Shown here piece after piece: positions 9,545 through 38,124 of a stretch of DNA of 38,353 bases. Within the stretch, counting starts at the first letter, position 1; every line of letters begins with the position of its first letter. The position numbers and the translations under genes were made by a program. Origin of the DNA: Alphaproteobacteria bacterium (GTDB lineage: Bacteria; Pseudomonadota; Alphaproteobacteria; GCA-2731375). Under the pieces are notes generated by a model, which was given only the letters and a program-made list of their open reading frames with translations, had not been told where the DNA came from and did not search any database. The stretch covers positions 1 through 38,353 of the forward strand of contig JAJFGG010000042.1 of NCBI GenBank assembly GCA_021776235.1. Reading direction: 5' to 3'.

Positions 9545-10447
9545 CTAAAGAATGGCGACGGGCCGAACAGGGCAACCAGTGGCGCCCTTGAATTTGACTG
9601 GCAGCAGGACAAAACAGAAACTATTGATGCCGTCCCGGGCCAGATCGGCCAGGACAAGATTCTCGATGATATGGACACCGGCCTCGACCAGGCAATGCTG
9701 GTGCACCGGCATCATAATCTCCGGGTGATTGGTGCCGGGCAGGACTTCCAGGGCCATATTGTCGGCGCCAATGGCCACCACCCCTTTTTCGGTCAGCCAC
9801 TGCGCCGCGCCGACATCCAGGCCCGGCTCGCCTTCCAGGTACTTGCTGTTGTTGACCATGAAAAAACGGCCCCAACCCGTATTGACCAACACCGCGTCGC
9901 CGGCCTGAAGCTCTATGTCCCTGGCTTCGCAGCATCGTTTCAAGTCGTCGGTGGTGACAGCCCGGCCCACGCCCAGATATTCGCCGCCGTCCAGGCCGGA
10001 AACATCCAGACATACGCCGCGTGTGATCATCGGCGGAATATGTTCGATGCCCAGATTGAGCAGGCCAAAATCGCCGACACTCTCGTCAACCGTATGGTCG
10101 CCGTACAGATGCTCGCCGATGCTGAAATGGCCCAGGGCATCGATATGGGTGCCCACGTGCATGGTCATTCCGACCCGTTCCAGATTGGCGCCAACCTGGT
10201 TGGTGGCCCCCATGCCGGCCCTGATCCGCATACTGTTGCGCGCGGTGGCACCGGAATGGATCACATAAGGCGTTTGATTGGGCGCCATGAACGGCGCGCC
10301 GTTTTCGATTACATGGCTCAGATCCAGCACCTGGCCGGATTTCGCCAGTGAGAGGGCCGCCAGCGTCGTTTCGGGCCCCAACTGATTGGCCGCGCCAAGC
10401 TGATCGCCAGCCCCCCAGCTGCCATGATCGTGGACACAATTGTTCAT
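9545..10447 (-). CDS. Cyclase family protein (kynurenine formamidase-like metal hydrolase)
   Basis: A 300-residue protein of the putative-cyclase family (PF04199), which includes bacterial kynurenine formamidase and isatin hydrolase. The metal-binding motif HxGTHxD is seen as MHVGTHIDALGHF (His97, His101, Asp103, with His107 following). The N-terminal DQLGAANQLGPE and the LDLSHVIENGAPFM block (41-54) are typical of the larger, roughly 300-residue subfamily, which is not true KynB. The ATG at 10447 has AGGGG seven bases upstream. It lies downstream of a XylD-like dehydratase gene, separated by the repeat element at 10458-10562. It may hydrolyse a lactone, amide or cyclic ketone of the same pathway, but this is inference. 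Confidence 0.85.
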   Translation of the reverse strand: MNNCVHDHGSWGAGDQLGAANQLGPETTLAALSLAKSGQVLDLSHVIENGAPFMAPNQTPYVIHSGATARNSMRIRAGMGATNQVGANLERVGMTMHVGTHIDALGHFSIGEHLYGDHTVDESVGDFGLLNLGIEHIPPMITRGVCLDVSGLDGGEYLGVGRAVTTDDLKRCCEARDIELQAGDAVLVNTGWGRFFMVNNSKYLEGEPGLDVGAAQWLTEKGVVAIGADNMALEVLPGTNHPEIMMPVHQHCLVEAGVHIIENLVLADLARDGINSFCFVLLPVKFKGATGCPVRPVAIL

Positions 10448-10457
10448 ATCATTCCCC

Positions 10458-10562
10458 TAGAGCAACCTGCGTTCATTTGAGCGCAGACAAGTTGCGCTAA
10501 CTCTTTAAAATTGATCAAATTATCAGCCCAAAAATGATGCCATTTTTGGGCTGTTTGATCTA
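10458..10562 (-). repeat. Bipartite palindromic repeat, copy B
   Basis: Two stem-loops joined by a short linker fill the gap between the dehydratase stop and the cyclase gene. One stem pairs AGAGCAAC-CTGCG with CGCAG-ACAA-GTTGCGCT (10459-10498, one mismatch). The other pairs GATCAAA and GCCCAAAAAT with ATTTTTGGGC and TTTGATC (10513-10560), with a perfect 10-bp inner stem. Read on the minus strand, the linker contains TTAAAGAGT. The same layout and linker occur at 35973-36077 on the plus strand. The element resembles dispersed palindromes of Rhizobiales genomes with an AGAGCA...TGCTCT outline. Confidence 0.7.
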
Positions 10563-12359
10563 ATGCGAATCCCGGGCTTCGCCCCGCTCCTCGATGACAT
10601 TGACGAACATGGTCGCGGGTTCCAGACAGGCGCCGGTTTCCAATTGACCCACCATGGAGCGGTAAATGTCCTCCCACGGTGTCTGGGAGCCAGGGAAGTT
10701 GGCGATCCAGGCGGCCTTGCGTTTCTCTATCTCGTCCGCCGGCAGCATCACATCAACGGTGCGTTTGTTCAAATCAACCCGCACCTTGTCACCGGTTACC
10801 AGTATCGCCAAACCGCCACCGACCGCGCTTTCGGGTGAGACATTGAGAATTGACGGACTACCGGACGTGCCGCTTTGCCGGCCATCACCCATGCAGGCCA
10901 AATCCTCGATCCCCTGCGCCGCCAGGGCGTCGGGGGGTGTCATATTGACCACCTCGGCCGAGCCGGGATAACCCACGGGGCCACTGCCCCGAATGACCAG
11001 GATGCTGTGCACGTCAATTTCCAGGGATGGGTCGTTGATCCGTGCGTGATAATCTTCCGGCCCCTCAAAAACGATCGCCCGGGCCTCAAAGGCATCTTCA
11101 TCACCAGATTTGGAGAGATAGCGGTTGCGGAAATTGTCGTCGATGACGGACGTCTTCATCACCGCGCTATCGAACAGGTTGCCCGACAACACCACGAAGC
11201 CGGCCTTGGCCATCATCGGCTGGTCGTAGGGTTTGATGACGTCGCGGTTGATATACGGGCTGGCGGCATGGGCGGCATCCAGATTTTCACCCATGGTCTT
11301 GCCAGTGACAGTCATGGCGCGTTCAATCAATTTACCGGCGTTTTTCAACTCCAGCATCACGCCGGGCACACCACCGGCCTTGTGATAGTCTTCGCCCAGA
11401 TACTCACCGGCGGGCTGCAGATTGACCAACAGGGGAATATCATGGCCATGGCTTTGCCAATCTTCCAATGACAGCTCCACGCCCATATGACGCGAGATGG
11501 CGGCCAGATGGATCGGGCAGTTGGACGATCCGCCGATGGCCGAGGACGTAACAATGGCGTTCAGAAAGGCGTCACGGGTCATCACGTCCGAGGGGCGCAA
11601 ATTTTCCCGCACCATATCCACTATCCGCAGACCGGTGCGATAGGCGCATTGGCCCCGTTCCCGATAGGGACCCGGGATCGCCGCGGCACCCGTAAGGGTC
11701 ATCCCCAAAGCCTCGGCCAGCGAGTTCATGGAGGTTGCCGTCCCCATGGTGTTGCAATGGCCTACGCTTTGTGCCGAAGAAGCAACTAGTTCGACAAATT
11801 TATCGATATCAATCTCGCCCGCGGCAAGTTTGACGCGCGCCTCCCAGACGATGGTGCCCGAGCCCGTATTCTTGCCTTCGTGATGACCGTTCAGCATCGG
11901 GCCGCCGGGCAGCGCGATGGCCGGAATATTCACCGTCGCGGCCCCCATCAGCATGGCCGGCGTGGTCTTGTCGCAGCCCGTGGTCAAAACCACGCCATCG
12001 ATGGGATAACCGTGCAGGACTTCCACCAGGGATAGATATTGCAGATTGCGGTCCAGGGCAGCCGTTGGCCGCTTGCCGGTCTCTTGAATAGGGTGCACGG
12101 GAAATTCGATCGGTACGCCGCCGGCAAAAATTATGCCGTCCCGTACACGCTTGGCCAATTCAACATGGTGGCGGTTGCAGGGCGAGAGATCGCTACCGGT
12201 CTGAGCGATGCCGATGATGGGGCGGCCCGATCGCAATTCCTCGGGCGTCAGGCCGAAATTGAGATAACGCTCCAGATACAGCGCCGACATTTCCTGATGA
12301 TCGGGATCATTGAACCAGCGTTGGCTGCGCAGTTTCAATTTTGTTTCGTCTTTTGCCAT
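10560..12359 (-). CDS. IlvD/Edd family dehydratase, D-xylonate dehydratase-like
   Basis: An iron-sulfur dehydratase of 599 residues that removes water from a sugar acid to give a 2-keto-3-deoxy acid. Cluster cysteines are visible at Cys61 (SPCNRHH), Cys129 ([10 protein letters not shown]) and Cys202 (GHCNTMGTA). The segments [37 protein letters not shown] and [17 protein letters not shown] closely recall Caulobacter XylD, so a pentonate or hexonate substrate is more likely than the dihydroxyacids of branched-chain amino-acid synthesis. The start at 12359 is preceded by GGGAG; the frame extends 14 codons further but lacks a reason to start there. The gene diverges from an amidohydrolase gene, and a cyclase-family gene follows. 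The exact sugar acid is not determined. Confidence 0.88.
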
Positions 12360-12511
12360 CACCCATCTCCCTATTCCTGTAACACACGAACTATCGACCA
12401 TCGCTTATAGCAGACCGGCGCCCGCAGGCGCCATTATTCCGGCCGATTTGCTGGTGCCGGGCATAGACCCATGGCAAAATGGCGCCTGGATTGTTCAGGA
12501 GAGCATAATAC

Positions 12512-35061: not shown

Positions 35062-35976
35062 TTGATCATTGTGTTCGGTTCCATCGGCCTGGATATTGTC
35101 CAGTCGGTAAAGCACTTGCCGCGACCGGGCGAAACAGTGTTGACTGCGGACTATGTCATGTTGCCAGGGGGCAAAGGCGCTAATCAGGCGTTGGCCGCGG
35201 CCCGGGCGGGCGCGACCGTCCGCTTTGCCGCCTCAATTGGCGATGATGATTTCGGACAGCGCGCCTTGCTCAACCTGGATCTGGCGGGTGTCGATCTCAC
35301 AGATGTGGTGCGCCGCGGCCGTCCCACGGCATGCGCCACGATTTCAGTTGATAGCGTTGGCGAAAATCAGATCGTGGTTTCGTCTGGTGCCAATCTTGAT
35401 ACTGTGGCCGAACAATTGAATCCAGCTGCAGGGGATCTTGTCTTGCAACAGATGGAAATCCTGCCATCGGAGATCTGGGCCGGGCTTGATCTGGCCCGGG
35501 AACGCGGCGCCAGGACGATATTGAATGCGGCGCCGTATCAATCCATCCCTCTGGCTGCCCTGGCCAAAATTGATGTCCTGATCTTGAACGAGGTGGAGGC
35601 ATCCATGTTGGCCCATGACTTGGGCCTGGATACATCCGATTTGCCTGGTGTCTGTGGCGGGGTCCAGGGACGTTTTGACACAACCGTTGTGTTGACCCTT
35701 GGGGCGGGAGGCGCCATGGCCTTCGCCCATGATGAAGCCTTGCAGGCCGGCATCCTGCCCATACGGGCCCTGGACACCGTTGGTGCCGGAGATGCCTTCG
35801 TGGGCGCCTATGTCGCTGCCCAGTCCGGTGGGATGGCCCTGGCAGACCGCCTGCGCTGGGGTAGTGTTGCTGGCGGCCTCGCCTGTCTGAGGCCTGGCGC
35901 TCAGGACGGAGTGCCCGAGCGCGCCGCCATCGAAGCCCGCCAGGACGAGATTACCATCACGCCGATTTCAATATAG
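35062..35976 (+). CDS. rbsK: Ribokinase-like PfkB family sugar kinase
   Basis: A PfkB-family carbohydrate kinase of 304 residues. GSIGLDIV (6-13) and PGGKGANQALAAARAG (35-50) form the sugar-binding N-terminal motif. LDTVGAGDAFVGAY (237-250) is the second signature, with Asp244 as the catalytic base. The size and GGKGANQA form are those of ribokinase, but other pentoses, deoxyribose or inosine cannot be excluded. The start is a TTG at 35062 with AAGG about ten bases upstream; a GTG lies three codons in. No rbs transport genes are adjacent. The stop codon falls inside the repeat element that begins at 35973. Confidence 0.82.
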   Translation: MIIVFGSIGLDIVQSVKHLPRPGETVLTADYVMLPGGKGANQALAAARAGATVRFAASIGDDDFGQRALLNLDLAGVDLTDVVRRGRPTACATISVDSVGENQIVVSSGANLDTVAEQLNPAAGDLVLQQMEILPSEIWAGLDLARERGARTILNAAPYQSIPLAALAKIDVLILNEVEASMLAHDLGLDTSDLPGVCGGVQGRFDTTVVLTLGAGGAMAFAHDEALQAGILPIRALDTVGAGDAFVGAYVAAQSGGMALADRLRWGSVAGGLACLRPGAQDGVPERAAIEARQDEITITPISI

Positions 35977-36077
35977 AGCAATTTTCAATTAATCGTGGTC
36001 GCTCGCGCGACCTAAGTAATTGGTTCAATTGCTCTATCTTAAAGAGTGGGAGCACATTTTTTTCAAATGTGCTCTAG
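35973..36077 (+). repeat. Bipartite palindromic repeat, copy A
   Basis: The 102-base gap between the convergent ribokinase and aldolase genes is filled by two stem-loops. The first pairs ATAGAGCAATT (35973-35983) with AATTGCTCTAT (36027-36037), a perfect 11 bp. Nested inside are AATTA/TAATT and GGTCGC/GCGACC. A linker with TTAAAGAGT (36039-36047) leads to GAGCACATTT (36050-36059) and AAATGTGCTC (36065-36074), a perfect 10-bp stem. The ribokinase stop is inside the first arm. It has the same layout as copy B at 10458-10562, read on the other strand. Confidence 0.75.
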
Positions 36078-36078
36078 T

Positions 36079-38124
36079 TCAGCGCAGGGCGGCGGCGATA
36101 TTGCCGCCGTCGACCGTCAGCGCCGCGCCGGTGGTTTTTTCCGCTTTCGCCAGGGCGACGAAGGTGCGCGCCACATCCTCTGCGGTAACTTCCCGGCGCA
36201 GCAGGTTCCCGGCCATATAGTCCGCCGTTGACACACCGCGTGCCTTTGAGCGCGCCGCGACCATGGTTTCGGTCAAAAGGCCGCTGCGGATGCGGTCCGC
36301 GTTGACCGCATTGGAACGAATACCCTGATCGCCATAATCTACCGCGTATTGCCGCATCAGCGACAAGGTAGCTGCCTTTGGCAGGCCATAGGGGCCAAAA
36401 TCCGGGCCCGGATTGACCGCTTGTTTTGAGGCATTGAACAATAACACGCCGCCCGTCGCCTGTTGTTGCATGATCGCCACGGCGGTTTTTGCCACCAGTT
36501 GGTGGGCGAAAAAATTCAACTCAAAACTGCGGCGCAACAGGCTATCGTCTACTTCACCAATCTTGCCTTGCCAGGCCGCGCCCGCGTTGGAGACAACAAT
36601 ATCCACGCCGCCATAATGGGCGCAAACATGATCGAAAGCCGACCCTACGGCGCTCGCATCGGTGACATCACAGGCCAGCCCCAAGCCGCCAAAGCCAGCC
36701 GCGGCTGCCGCCGCCTGGTCGCCATCCAGATCCAGAACGGCCACGGCCGCGCCTTCCGCCGCAAAAGCCGCGGCAGTGGCAGCGCCAATGGCCCCGGCCC
36801 CGCCGGTTACCGCGACGACGTGGCCGGCCAAAGCCGATTCCGGCGTCCGGCCCAATTTTGACTGTTCCAGGGACCAATATTCGACGTTGAACAGATCCGT
36901 CTCGTCGACACTTTCAAACCGGCCCAGATGTTCCGCCGCAGCAATCACCGCCATGGCGCTGGCCGCAATATCGGCCACCATTTCCGCATCATGGGCCGTC
37001 CTGTCCGCCGTGAACAGGCCAACGCCGGGCACCAGGATGACTTTGGGCAGCGGGTTCAACATGACCAATTCCGGCCTCTTGTGGCGCCCGAAATAGTCAC
37101 CATAAGCGGCCGCATAATGCGCCGTGGCAGCCACTGCCTCTGCTGCGAATTCAGCTAAATCGGCACCCTCAGGGGCGGGCAGAATAAGCGGCAGCCGTTT
37201 GGTGCGGATGGCATGATCGGGCGTGACCACACCAACCTGGCTATAACGGCCAAGATCCTTGCCATTGACGTATTTCATCACCTCGTCGTCGCCGCGGTAC
37301 GACAGCACAACCCGGCGATAACCACCCGGCATGGCCTCGTCGGCCCGGGCCAGCGCCGAGCGCAGGATGGGGCCTACTTCCGCCGCGGTCGGCGGTGTCC
37401 GCGGCAGGGCGATGGAGGCAAAGATCTTGCGCCGGCCCTGGCGCAAACGGCCCTCGGCCAGATTGACCAGCGCAATCGTTCTGGCATAGGATTCTGCCGC
37501 TGTTTCGCCAAAACTGACCATGCCGTGTTTTGACAGAATCATCCCAATACAGTTCGGTTGTCCGGCATAGGCCTTCGCCGCCGCCTTCGCCAGGGCCAGT
37601 CCCGACATTTCGTAGGGCACCACGACAGCCATTTCGGCAAACGTTTCAGCACAGATCGCGTCGCCGTCGGGCTGGTTCGTTAACGCCAGAATGGCTGATG
37701 CGTGGGTATGGTCCACGTAGACCTGGGGCAGAAAGGCATGCAGCAGGGTCTCCACCGATGGATCCGGCGCCTGCACCTCCATCAGGCTGCCCCGGAGCAG
37801 ATTGACCATGCTCAGATCATCCAACGCCGCCAGTGTCTGTAAACGGCGCAACGGTTCCAATCGTACGGCCGGCATGCCCGCGGCCTCGATTTGCGCCATG
37901 TCCCAACCGCTTCCCTTGATGTGCATGAGTGCCAGCTCATTCCCATAGAGGTCCGTTGCTTTGACCTTTAGGGACGCGTTGCCACCGCCATGCAGGACCA
38001 AATCCCGGTCGTGGCCCAATAACCGGGCGCTGTACAGACGCAGGGCCAGGGCTTCACCAACGCCGGCCGCAGCGCAACGGTCTATGCAGTCTTGGGCGTC
38101 TATATCGGACCAAAGATTATCCAT
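36079..38124 (-). CDS. Bifunctional class II aldolase / short-chain dehydrogenase fusion
   Basis: A 681-residue two-domain protein of the RhaD-SDR type. The N-terminal class II aldolase (about 1-420) has zinc ligands in VDHTHAS (His139, His141) and LSKHGMV (His200). It would split a ketose 1-phosphate to dihydroxyacetone phosphate and an aldehyde. The C-terminal short-chain dehydrogenase (about 430-681) has TGGAGAIG (440-447), SNAG (512-515), Ser566 and the YxxxK pair Tyr579/Lys583. It would oxidise or reduce the aldehyde. The usual name is rhamnulose-1-phosphate aldolase/dehydrogenase. I chose the ATG at 38124, one base after the stop of the mtnA-like gene, which means strong coupling. That partner suggests a 5-deoxy- or 5-thio-sugar rather than rhamnose. 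Confidence 0.88.
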   Translation of the reverse strand: MDNLWSDIDAQDCIDRCAAAGVGEALALRLYSARLLGHDRDLVLHGGGNASLKVKATDLYGNELALMHIKGSGWDMAQIEAAGMPAVRLEPLRRLQTLAALDDLSMVNLLRGSLMEVQAPDPSVETLLHAFLPQVYVDHTHASAILALTNQPDGDAICAETFAEMAVVVPYEMSGLALAKAAAKAYAGQPNCIGMILSKHGMVSFGETAAESYARTIALVNLAEGRLRQGRRKIFASIALPRTPPTAAEVGPILRSALARADEAMPGGYRRVVLSYRGDDEVMKYVNGKDLGRYSQVGVVTPDHAIRTKRLPLILPAPEGADLAEFAAEAVAATAHYAAAYGDYFGRHKRPELVMLNPLPKVILVPGVGLFTADRTAHDAEMVADIAASAMAVIAAAEHLGRFESVDETDLFNVEYWSLEQSKLGRTPESALAGHVVAVTGGAGAIGAATAAAFAAEGAAVAVLDLDGDQAAAAAAGFGGLGLACDVTDASAVGSAFDHVCAHYGGVDIVVSNAGAAWQGKIGEVDDSLLRRSFELNFFAHQLVAKTAVAIMQQQATGGVLLFNASKQAVNPGPDFGPYGLPKAATLSLMRQYAVDYGDQGIRSNAVNADRIRSGLLTETMVAARSKARGVSTADYMAGNLLRREVTAEDVARTFVALAKAEKTTGAALTVDGGNIAAALR

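Follow-up and report, generated by a model that had tools for sequence, protein, structure and literature searches.

The CcrM-associated intergenic repeats (CIR) of Caulobacter and many other alphaproteobacteria are intergenic elements of about 110 bp in which a linker connects two long arms; they fall into several families and carry GANTC at or near the terminal loop (PMC2229807). The passages of that review that treat them note only a partial resemblance to MITEs and state that more information is needed on the mechanism of their mobility. Similar palindromic repeats, known as RIME, occur in Rhizobium and Sinorhizobium (PMC2573895, PMC2873474). In Streptococcus pneumoniae the RUP element, which is about 107 bp long and targets TA, has been proposed to be mobilized by an IS630 element (IS630-Spn1) (PMC2229807, PMC3049150), and BOX elements supply the stop codons of genes in 36 cases, for which truncation is, in the part of the source that describes them, not strongly evidenced (PMC3049150).

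Here we describe two related families of elements, A and B, in the genome of an alphaproteobacterium. One copy of each lies in the window, by which we mean the whole stretch of 38,353 nucleotides that was analyzed. Set against the review's description of CIR, both families fit: they are 104–106 nt long, have two arms and a linker (as judged by folds and, for A, by covariation), are intergenic, contain GANTC at the level of the family and reside in a host with a RAMA/CcrM-like gene. Beyond what the review's passages describe for CIR, TA duplication and stop-codon reuse are seen here. RUP is described, in the corresponding passages, without the twin-hairpin plan or the stop-codon reuse that are both present here, and its ends are closely similar to the ends of its IS, whereas the likeness in our case extends over about six bases (PMC2229807, PMC3049150). 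BOX elements differ in structure and source, and the rebuilding of a stop codon from TA plus G does not figure in the part of the source that describes them (PMC3049150). The kind of element is already known. What is new, within the literature searched, is the mode of insertion, by which the stop codon is rebuilt; titles and the opening parts of abstracts (with subscription journals mostly outside the search) yielded no account of this mode for CIR or RIME.

Results

The genome (G000) measures 6.36 Mb in 174 contigs, of which the window is one (C111). Judged by the aldolase/dehydrogenase gene beside copy A, the closest named relatives are alphaproteobacterial genomes from marine metagenomes, among them BS150m-G9 (locus L055) and casp150-mb.302 (locus L056). 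No Rfam family matched the window above its curated score, and a search of plasmids with copy A as the query returned no match. TAG is a common stop codon in the window, where the 37 predicted genes end in TAG (14), TGA (16) or TAA (7).

Copy A occupies positions 35974–36076 of the plus strand, including the TA at each end (element proper 35976–36074), and matches the family A model over 35973–36076 with 124 bits, being itself one of the 12 copies in that model. It is flanked by a gene for a PfkB-family carbohydrate kinase upstream (35062–35976, plus strand; PF00294, E = 5.9e-43) and by a convergent aldolase/short-chain dehydrogenase gene, whose stop codon (36079–36081) stands just outside the right-hand TA (36075–36076). 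Folding placed hairpin 1 at 35974–36036 and hairpin 2 at 36050–36074, separated by a linker (36037–36049) that contains TTAAAGAGT. Copy B lies on the minus strand at 10458–10562 (element proper 10560–10460; family B model match 10458–10563, 123.3 bits, copy B being one of the 14 copies in the model) between two genes read in the same direction, an upstream gene of the dihydroxy-acid/6-phosphogluconate dehydratase family (IlvD/Edd-like; 10560–12401, minus strand, start uncertain; PF00920, E = 5.4e-101) and, just downstream, a cyclase-family gene (9545–10447, minus strand; PF04199, E = 3.3e-30). Its hairpin 1 (10513–10560) has a 4-nt bulge on the 3' strand, its linker (10500–10512) again contains TTAAAGAGT, and its hairpin 2 (10458–10499) has a 4-nt bulge on the 5' strand. 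In comparison with shuffled sequences the two copies folded with z scores of −6.88 (A) and −6.33 (B), which none of 200 shuffles reached in either case.

The original prediction had placed both copies correctly to within one or two bases, and the hairpin-linker-hairpin architecture that it proposed for both is borne out by the folds and by the cross-family model scores given below. It counted 20 matches over 28 linker bases; we obtained 16–21 depending on the placement anchored on TTAAAGAGT, with 20 in several placements. Its statement that both copies abut a stop codon is true but understated: the TAG of either element itself serves as the stop of the gene upstream. In copy A this TAG (35974–35976) is the stop of the PfkB-family gene and, at the same time, the 5' end of the element, made up of the TA duplication and the element's first G; in copy B the TAG at 10560–10562 of the minus strand likewise ends the IlvD/Edd-like gene and begins the element.

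The prediction also treated the two as copies of one element. They are indeed related and built on one plan, but each is a member of its own sequence family. A model built from A copies alone gave window copy B 27.5 bits (E = 0.047 for the genome), and a model of B copies alone gave window copy A 30.4 bits (E = 0.022). Model R1 was built from 12 A copies, with the truncated copy L005 and copy L018 left out, and model R2 from 14 B copies. With the 150 best candidates scored, R1 found, in its own genome, 22 matches above 80 bits (strong A), 10 of them outside the model set, and at least 67 at E ≤ 1, a figure that includes antisense matches and B copies; R2 found 20 above 89 bits (strong B), six of them outside the model set, and at least 71 at E ≤ 1. 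At that threshold R1 weakly picked up at least 15 strong B copies out of the 20, and R2 at least 15 strong A copies out of the 22; these cross-family scores exceed what chance would give. Thus, covariance models did uncover many further copies, in this genome as in its congeners, and none of 60 loci in our genome fell within a called gene, so that the copies are intergenic.

Several arrangements of copies deserve mention. Short versions of 64–65 nt (L056:18802–18866 and G000:C140:49333–49396) have a reduced hairpin 1 and keep the linker and hairpin 2. Three A copies stand head to tail in G002 (C31:107526–107831) with a period of 101 bases, neighbors overlapping by 3 bases, and in G009 (C368:11242–11448) a B copy lies beside an A copy with a 3-base overlap, as if one had inserted in the TA of the other. 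In contigs C34, C101, C53, C42 and C85 of our genome several copies lie no more than 300 bases from a contig end; the assembly may therefore be interrupted by the repeats, and their numbers underestimated.

R1 found matches in all 11 genomes of the genus, our own included, in numbers from five to at least 150 (the latter in G002). R2 found matches in the same 11, with 122 in G009, 95 in G004 and a single weak match in G006. Neither model matched any of four genomes from other genera of the family. Copy numbers thus vary more than 10-fold between congeners, and the R1 and R2 counts indicate that different families have been amplified in different genomes. In a sample of 190 genomes of the class, searched with stricter filters, R2 had matches at E ≤ 1e-4 in six (our own included), the five others representing five other families of the class. 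Nine copies from these five genomes mostly keep feet like TAGATCA or TAGAGCA, have GATTCTAAAGAGCC or TATCTTTCAAAGAGT, for instance, as their linker, and close hairpin 2 with GCTCTA, but their stems are unrelated and at times longer; one of them (L301) is decayed.

A likeness to palindromes of Rhizobiales had been proposed from the start, and it gains some support from a single R2 match in 200 kb of Sinorhizobium pSymB (four pieces of 50 kb) and from a similar layout there. The match scored 25.9 bits (E = 0.0014 in the first 50 kb, 0.0058 in 200 kb) and belongs to a small repeat family with five copies of at least 81 aligned bases, the seed included, plus fragments. In these repeats a TAGATCA..TGATC hairpin is followed by GATTCCAAGAAGTT as the linker and then by a second hairpin, which closes with GCTCTA; their stems and part of the second hairpin differ from those of our element. 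They are probably the annotated RIME1; RIME was reportedly described by Osteras in 1995 as a 108-bp repeat with two palindromes. The resemblance suggests a RIME-like kinship.

The prediction that the stems vary in sequence but stay paired holds for family A. When 59 A matches were aligned, giving 58 distinct rows, standard pairs made up 96.1% of cells, a percentage that leans upward because the alignment was fitted to the model, and pairing fell to 32–38% when partner positions were slid. Compensatory changes were found in the stems: 16 of 31 pairs had changed on both sides, and none of 500 shuffles reached any of five measures. No change on both sides was seen in the nine outermost pairs of hairpin 1. 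The plan of the fold extends beyond a single family. Among 21 folded elements, several of them from one family, 13 have a 3–4-nt bulge on the 3' strand of hairpin 1, 7–9 bp from the predicted foot, and five A copies have a 1x3 loop at this position; three (L057, L305 and one pSymB copy) do not match the plan. Nine of the 21 have a 3–4-nt bulge on the 5' strand of hairpin 2, 8–9 bp from the foot, which is absent from A copies, L306, L305, L299 and the copies of pSymB. Both bulges point toward the linker in B-type members, whose stems are otherwise unrelated. Stems have thus been swapped wholly between families while the plan was kept, which points to a requirement on a folded single strand, whether RNA or DNA, and we infer that the element makes use of its folded form.

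GANTC was present in 18 of 25 A copies (7.6 expected by shuffling) and 18 of 20 B copies (6.1 expected) of our genome and in 39 of 40 A copies of G002 (12.0 expected), an excess that is inflated by shared descent; among family representatives it was present in eight of nine (p = 0.0016) and was the commonest of the 16 motifs of that form. It stands at the hairpin 1 loop in B and in the linker and an inner stem in A. Neither window copy contains it. A RAMA-domain gene was found in 10 of the 11 genus genomes, and the RAMA protein of L308 matched the NCBIfam CcrM model with 617 bits, below that model's cut-off of 830. The CcrM-like gene of L307 and L308 adjoins a reading frame on the other strand, presumably MutY-like.

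Comparison with relatives uncovered empty sites for both window copies and so bore out the mobile nature that the prediction had suggested as a possibility. Copy A is absent from the PfkB/aldolase junction in all 10 relatives. The junction in the window reads ATTTCAATA-TA-[GAGCA..TGCTC]-TA-GTTCAGCGCA; minus the element and one TA it measures 21 nt, equal to the junctions in L056 (ATTTCGGAATAGATCAGCGCA) and L055 (ATTTCGAATTAACTCAACGTA), whereas the spacing differs in the other eight relatives. Copy B is absent from the dehydratase/cyclase junction in all nine congeners that have this junction (G007 had no cyclase match), and in all nine the dehydratase terminates at the same codon, TAA or TAG, as for example in L218 (CATTAAGGGAGG), to be compared with CAT-TA-[GATCA..GCTC]-TA-GGGGAA in the window. 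Both copies thus sit in the TA of the upstream stop codon, and the TA is duplicated, as is expected of a MITE of the IS630 type. Further sites came from the relatives themselves. An A element in L055 supplies TAG where L056 has TAA, and a B-like element in L057 ends, in the opposite orientation, on the stop of the same gene. The 65-nt short version in L056 has a counterpart without an element in L055 and in the window; the site at L056:8809 is not clean.

Among B copies with both TA intact, A follows the right-hand TA in 11 of 17, from which we conclude that the duplication is TA and not TAG. Targets conformed to YTAR in 25 of 28 copies of our genome and 28 of 30 of G002 with both TA intact, as compared with 125 of 473 intergenic TA. 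One TA or the other is missing from 14 of 25 A copies and three of 20 B copies of our genome, which may reflect decay.

The element proper starts with G and ends with C, so that TA plus G makes TAG at one end and, symmetrically, on the other strand at the other end. A TAA or TAG stop codon struck in its TA is therefore rebuilt as an in-frame TAG in either orientation, and stop codons are harmless landing sites. To count such cases we used 45 strong copies of our genome (the 60 loci minus 15 short, weak or decayed copies, L050–L054 and L155–L164) and, save a few, the 40 strongest A copies among the matches listed for G002. The terminal TAG was the exact stop of a neighboring gene in 24 of the 45 (12 of 25 A and 12 of 20 B) and in 22 of the 40 (24 gene ends); the remaining 21 and 18 copies, respectively, had no stop overlap. 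Counted by gene ends, 24 were exact and 20 others lay within 50 bp in our genome, as compared with an expectation of 28% exact (64 background genes provided 31 TA in stop codons and 81 TA downstream; p = 1.6e-4), and 24 were exact and 16 within 50 bp in G002 (p = 1.9e-5, reusing the background of our own genome). These p-values are rough, because genes were called by a codon-usage script rather than taken from annotation and because copies share descent, and part of the excess stems from the YTAR preference; in a looser count, 66 of 539 non-coding or stop TA fall in stop codons. At nine loci of the wider class, five of 14 intact terminal TAG, at five loci, close a frame of at least 325 codons, as compared with one of 142 other TAG in the same loci. 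In pSymB two copies were caught by pattern, and no long frame terminates on the TAG of either. Over all 60 loci of our genome, exact gene ends were at the left in 13 cases and at the right in two for A, and at the left and right in nine cases each for B; for both genomes together, the shared stop was at the 5' end of the element for 35 gene ends and at the 3' end for 13 (p = 0.002).

The DDE domain of IS630-type transposases (PF13358) was found in nine of the 11 genus genomes. It had no match in G002, despite the at least 150 A matches there, or in G004, so that the enzyme may be lost, unseen or of another family in these two. An IS630 gene in L192 (NCBIfam IS630) is bounded by CTAGAGCATTTCCGAC and GTCGGAAACGCTCTAG, which have TA-GAGC ends like those of the element; the likeness covers about six bases, TA-GAGC[AG], and is common to L192 and a few others. 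Among 20 PF13358 loci of the genus we found no autonomous partner with long A or B ends. A-type matches occur near IS630 genes in L197, L204, L210 and L211, and in L197 a B-like element abuts an IS end. As the IS630 of L197, L198 and L204 has its own ends (CTAGTGGTCTGA..), we interpret these cases as separate insertions with a shared TA and reject a single unit of IS and element. In L285, from G002, an A element is directly followed by a near-perfect palindrome of 57 nt (positions 703–759), whose ends are IS630-like (TAGAGCGTTACCGG..CCGGTAACGCTCTA) and which shares the TA of the A element.

Discussion

We consider that the element, about 100 nt long, is probably a non-coding transposon that is not autonomous, targets TA and reuses stop codons, and that is presumably moved in trans by an enzyme of the IS630 type. 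The original prediction, that the two copies belong to a family of possibly mobile elements, is supported by the further copies, the covariation and the empty sites. The element would insert at TA, mostly within YTAR, and duplicate the TA in the mode of IS630/Tc1-mariner. A TAA or TAG stop codon hit at its TA in either orientation would be turned into an in-frame TAG and the gene would be left unharmed. Of the strong copies that were examined, about half lie on a stop codon. The twin hairpins and fixed linker would be kept as one architecture because a folded single strand is presumably needed. An IS630-type source of the transposition is likely, and action of the transposase in trans would complete the scheme.

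A folded form conserved across families would also suit an enzyme that acts on single strands, such as the Y1/HUH REP-associated tyrosine transposases that spread REP-like elements by way of single-stranded DNA hairpins, with no target duplication. Our genome has four matches to PF01797 above the cut-off and one weak match, and the protein of L130 scores 70.2 bits (cut-off 80) against the model for REP-associated tyrosine transposases. But the junctions fit a duplication of TA, the loci of about 3 kb around the Y1 genes (L130–L134) contain no A or B match, and the Y1 genes of our own genome (L130–L133) are flanked by different repeats, such as AAAGGGGAC and GGGGTCAG, so that we regard an origin of this sort as unlikely. 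It is, in our judgment, quite improbable that the element is instead a vertically kept and now immobile RNA element, whose hairpins stabilize or end messages at their 3' ends. Covariation and the exclusion of all 60 loci from called genes would agree with such a role, and the excess of shared stops at the 5' end could reflect selection for the sense strand, although it may also stem from A preferring YTAG as its target. However, none of the relatives examined has an element at either window site, the more than 10-fold differences in copy number between congeners speak against vertical maintenance, and the copies read have no run of T after hairpin 2. Copies may nevertheless act at the level of RNA once they have inserted.

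The shared stop codons themselves might have arisen by chance, if random insertions had truncated genes in a frame that met the element's TAG; as the terminal TAG has a fixed place, about one frame in three would end there. Chance truncation predicts about twice as many genes reading past the TAG, whereas in the two genomes 48 gene ends were exact and only six genes read into an element. Moreover, homologs without the element end alike, at the same codon in nine of nine for B and within a few residues for A, whose gene has a variable C-terminus. We therefore reject a chance frame as the source of the shared stops, an explanation that we hold to be very improbable.

Unlikely, to our mind, is the broader proposal of a class-wide superfamily of alphaproteobacterial twin-hairpin transposons whose G and C ends have evolved so that TAG is restored after TA insertion into a stop codon in either orientation. 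In this proposal the fixed single-strand plan, with bulges directed at the linker, and a GANTC open to methylation by CcrM would couple movement to the folded strand or to DNA that is hemimethylated after replication. If it were true, the cell cycle would set the time of transposition, with landing at harmless sites.

Finally, the syntenic empty sites address the gap, stated in the review's passages on CIR, as to how these repeats move, and they do so by way of TA duplication (PMC2229807). A fold that is conserved while its stems are swapped makes it possible to tell selection on shape apart from selection on sequence. Any alphaproteobacterial genome can be inspected for TA ends and shared stop codons, and the stop-codon trick allows a transposon to insert into a compact genome and do no damage there.
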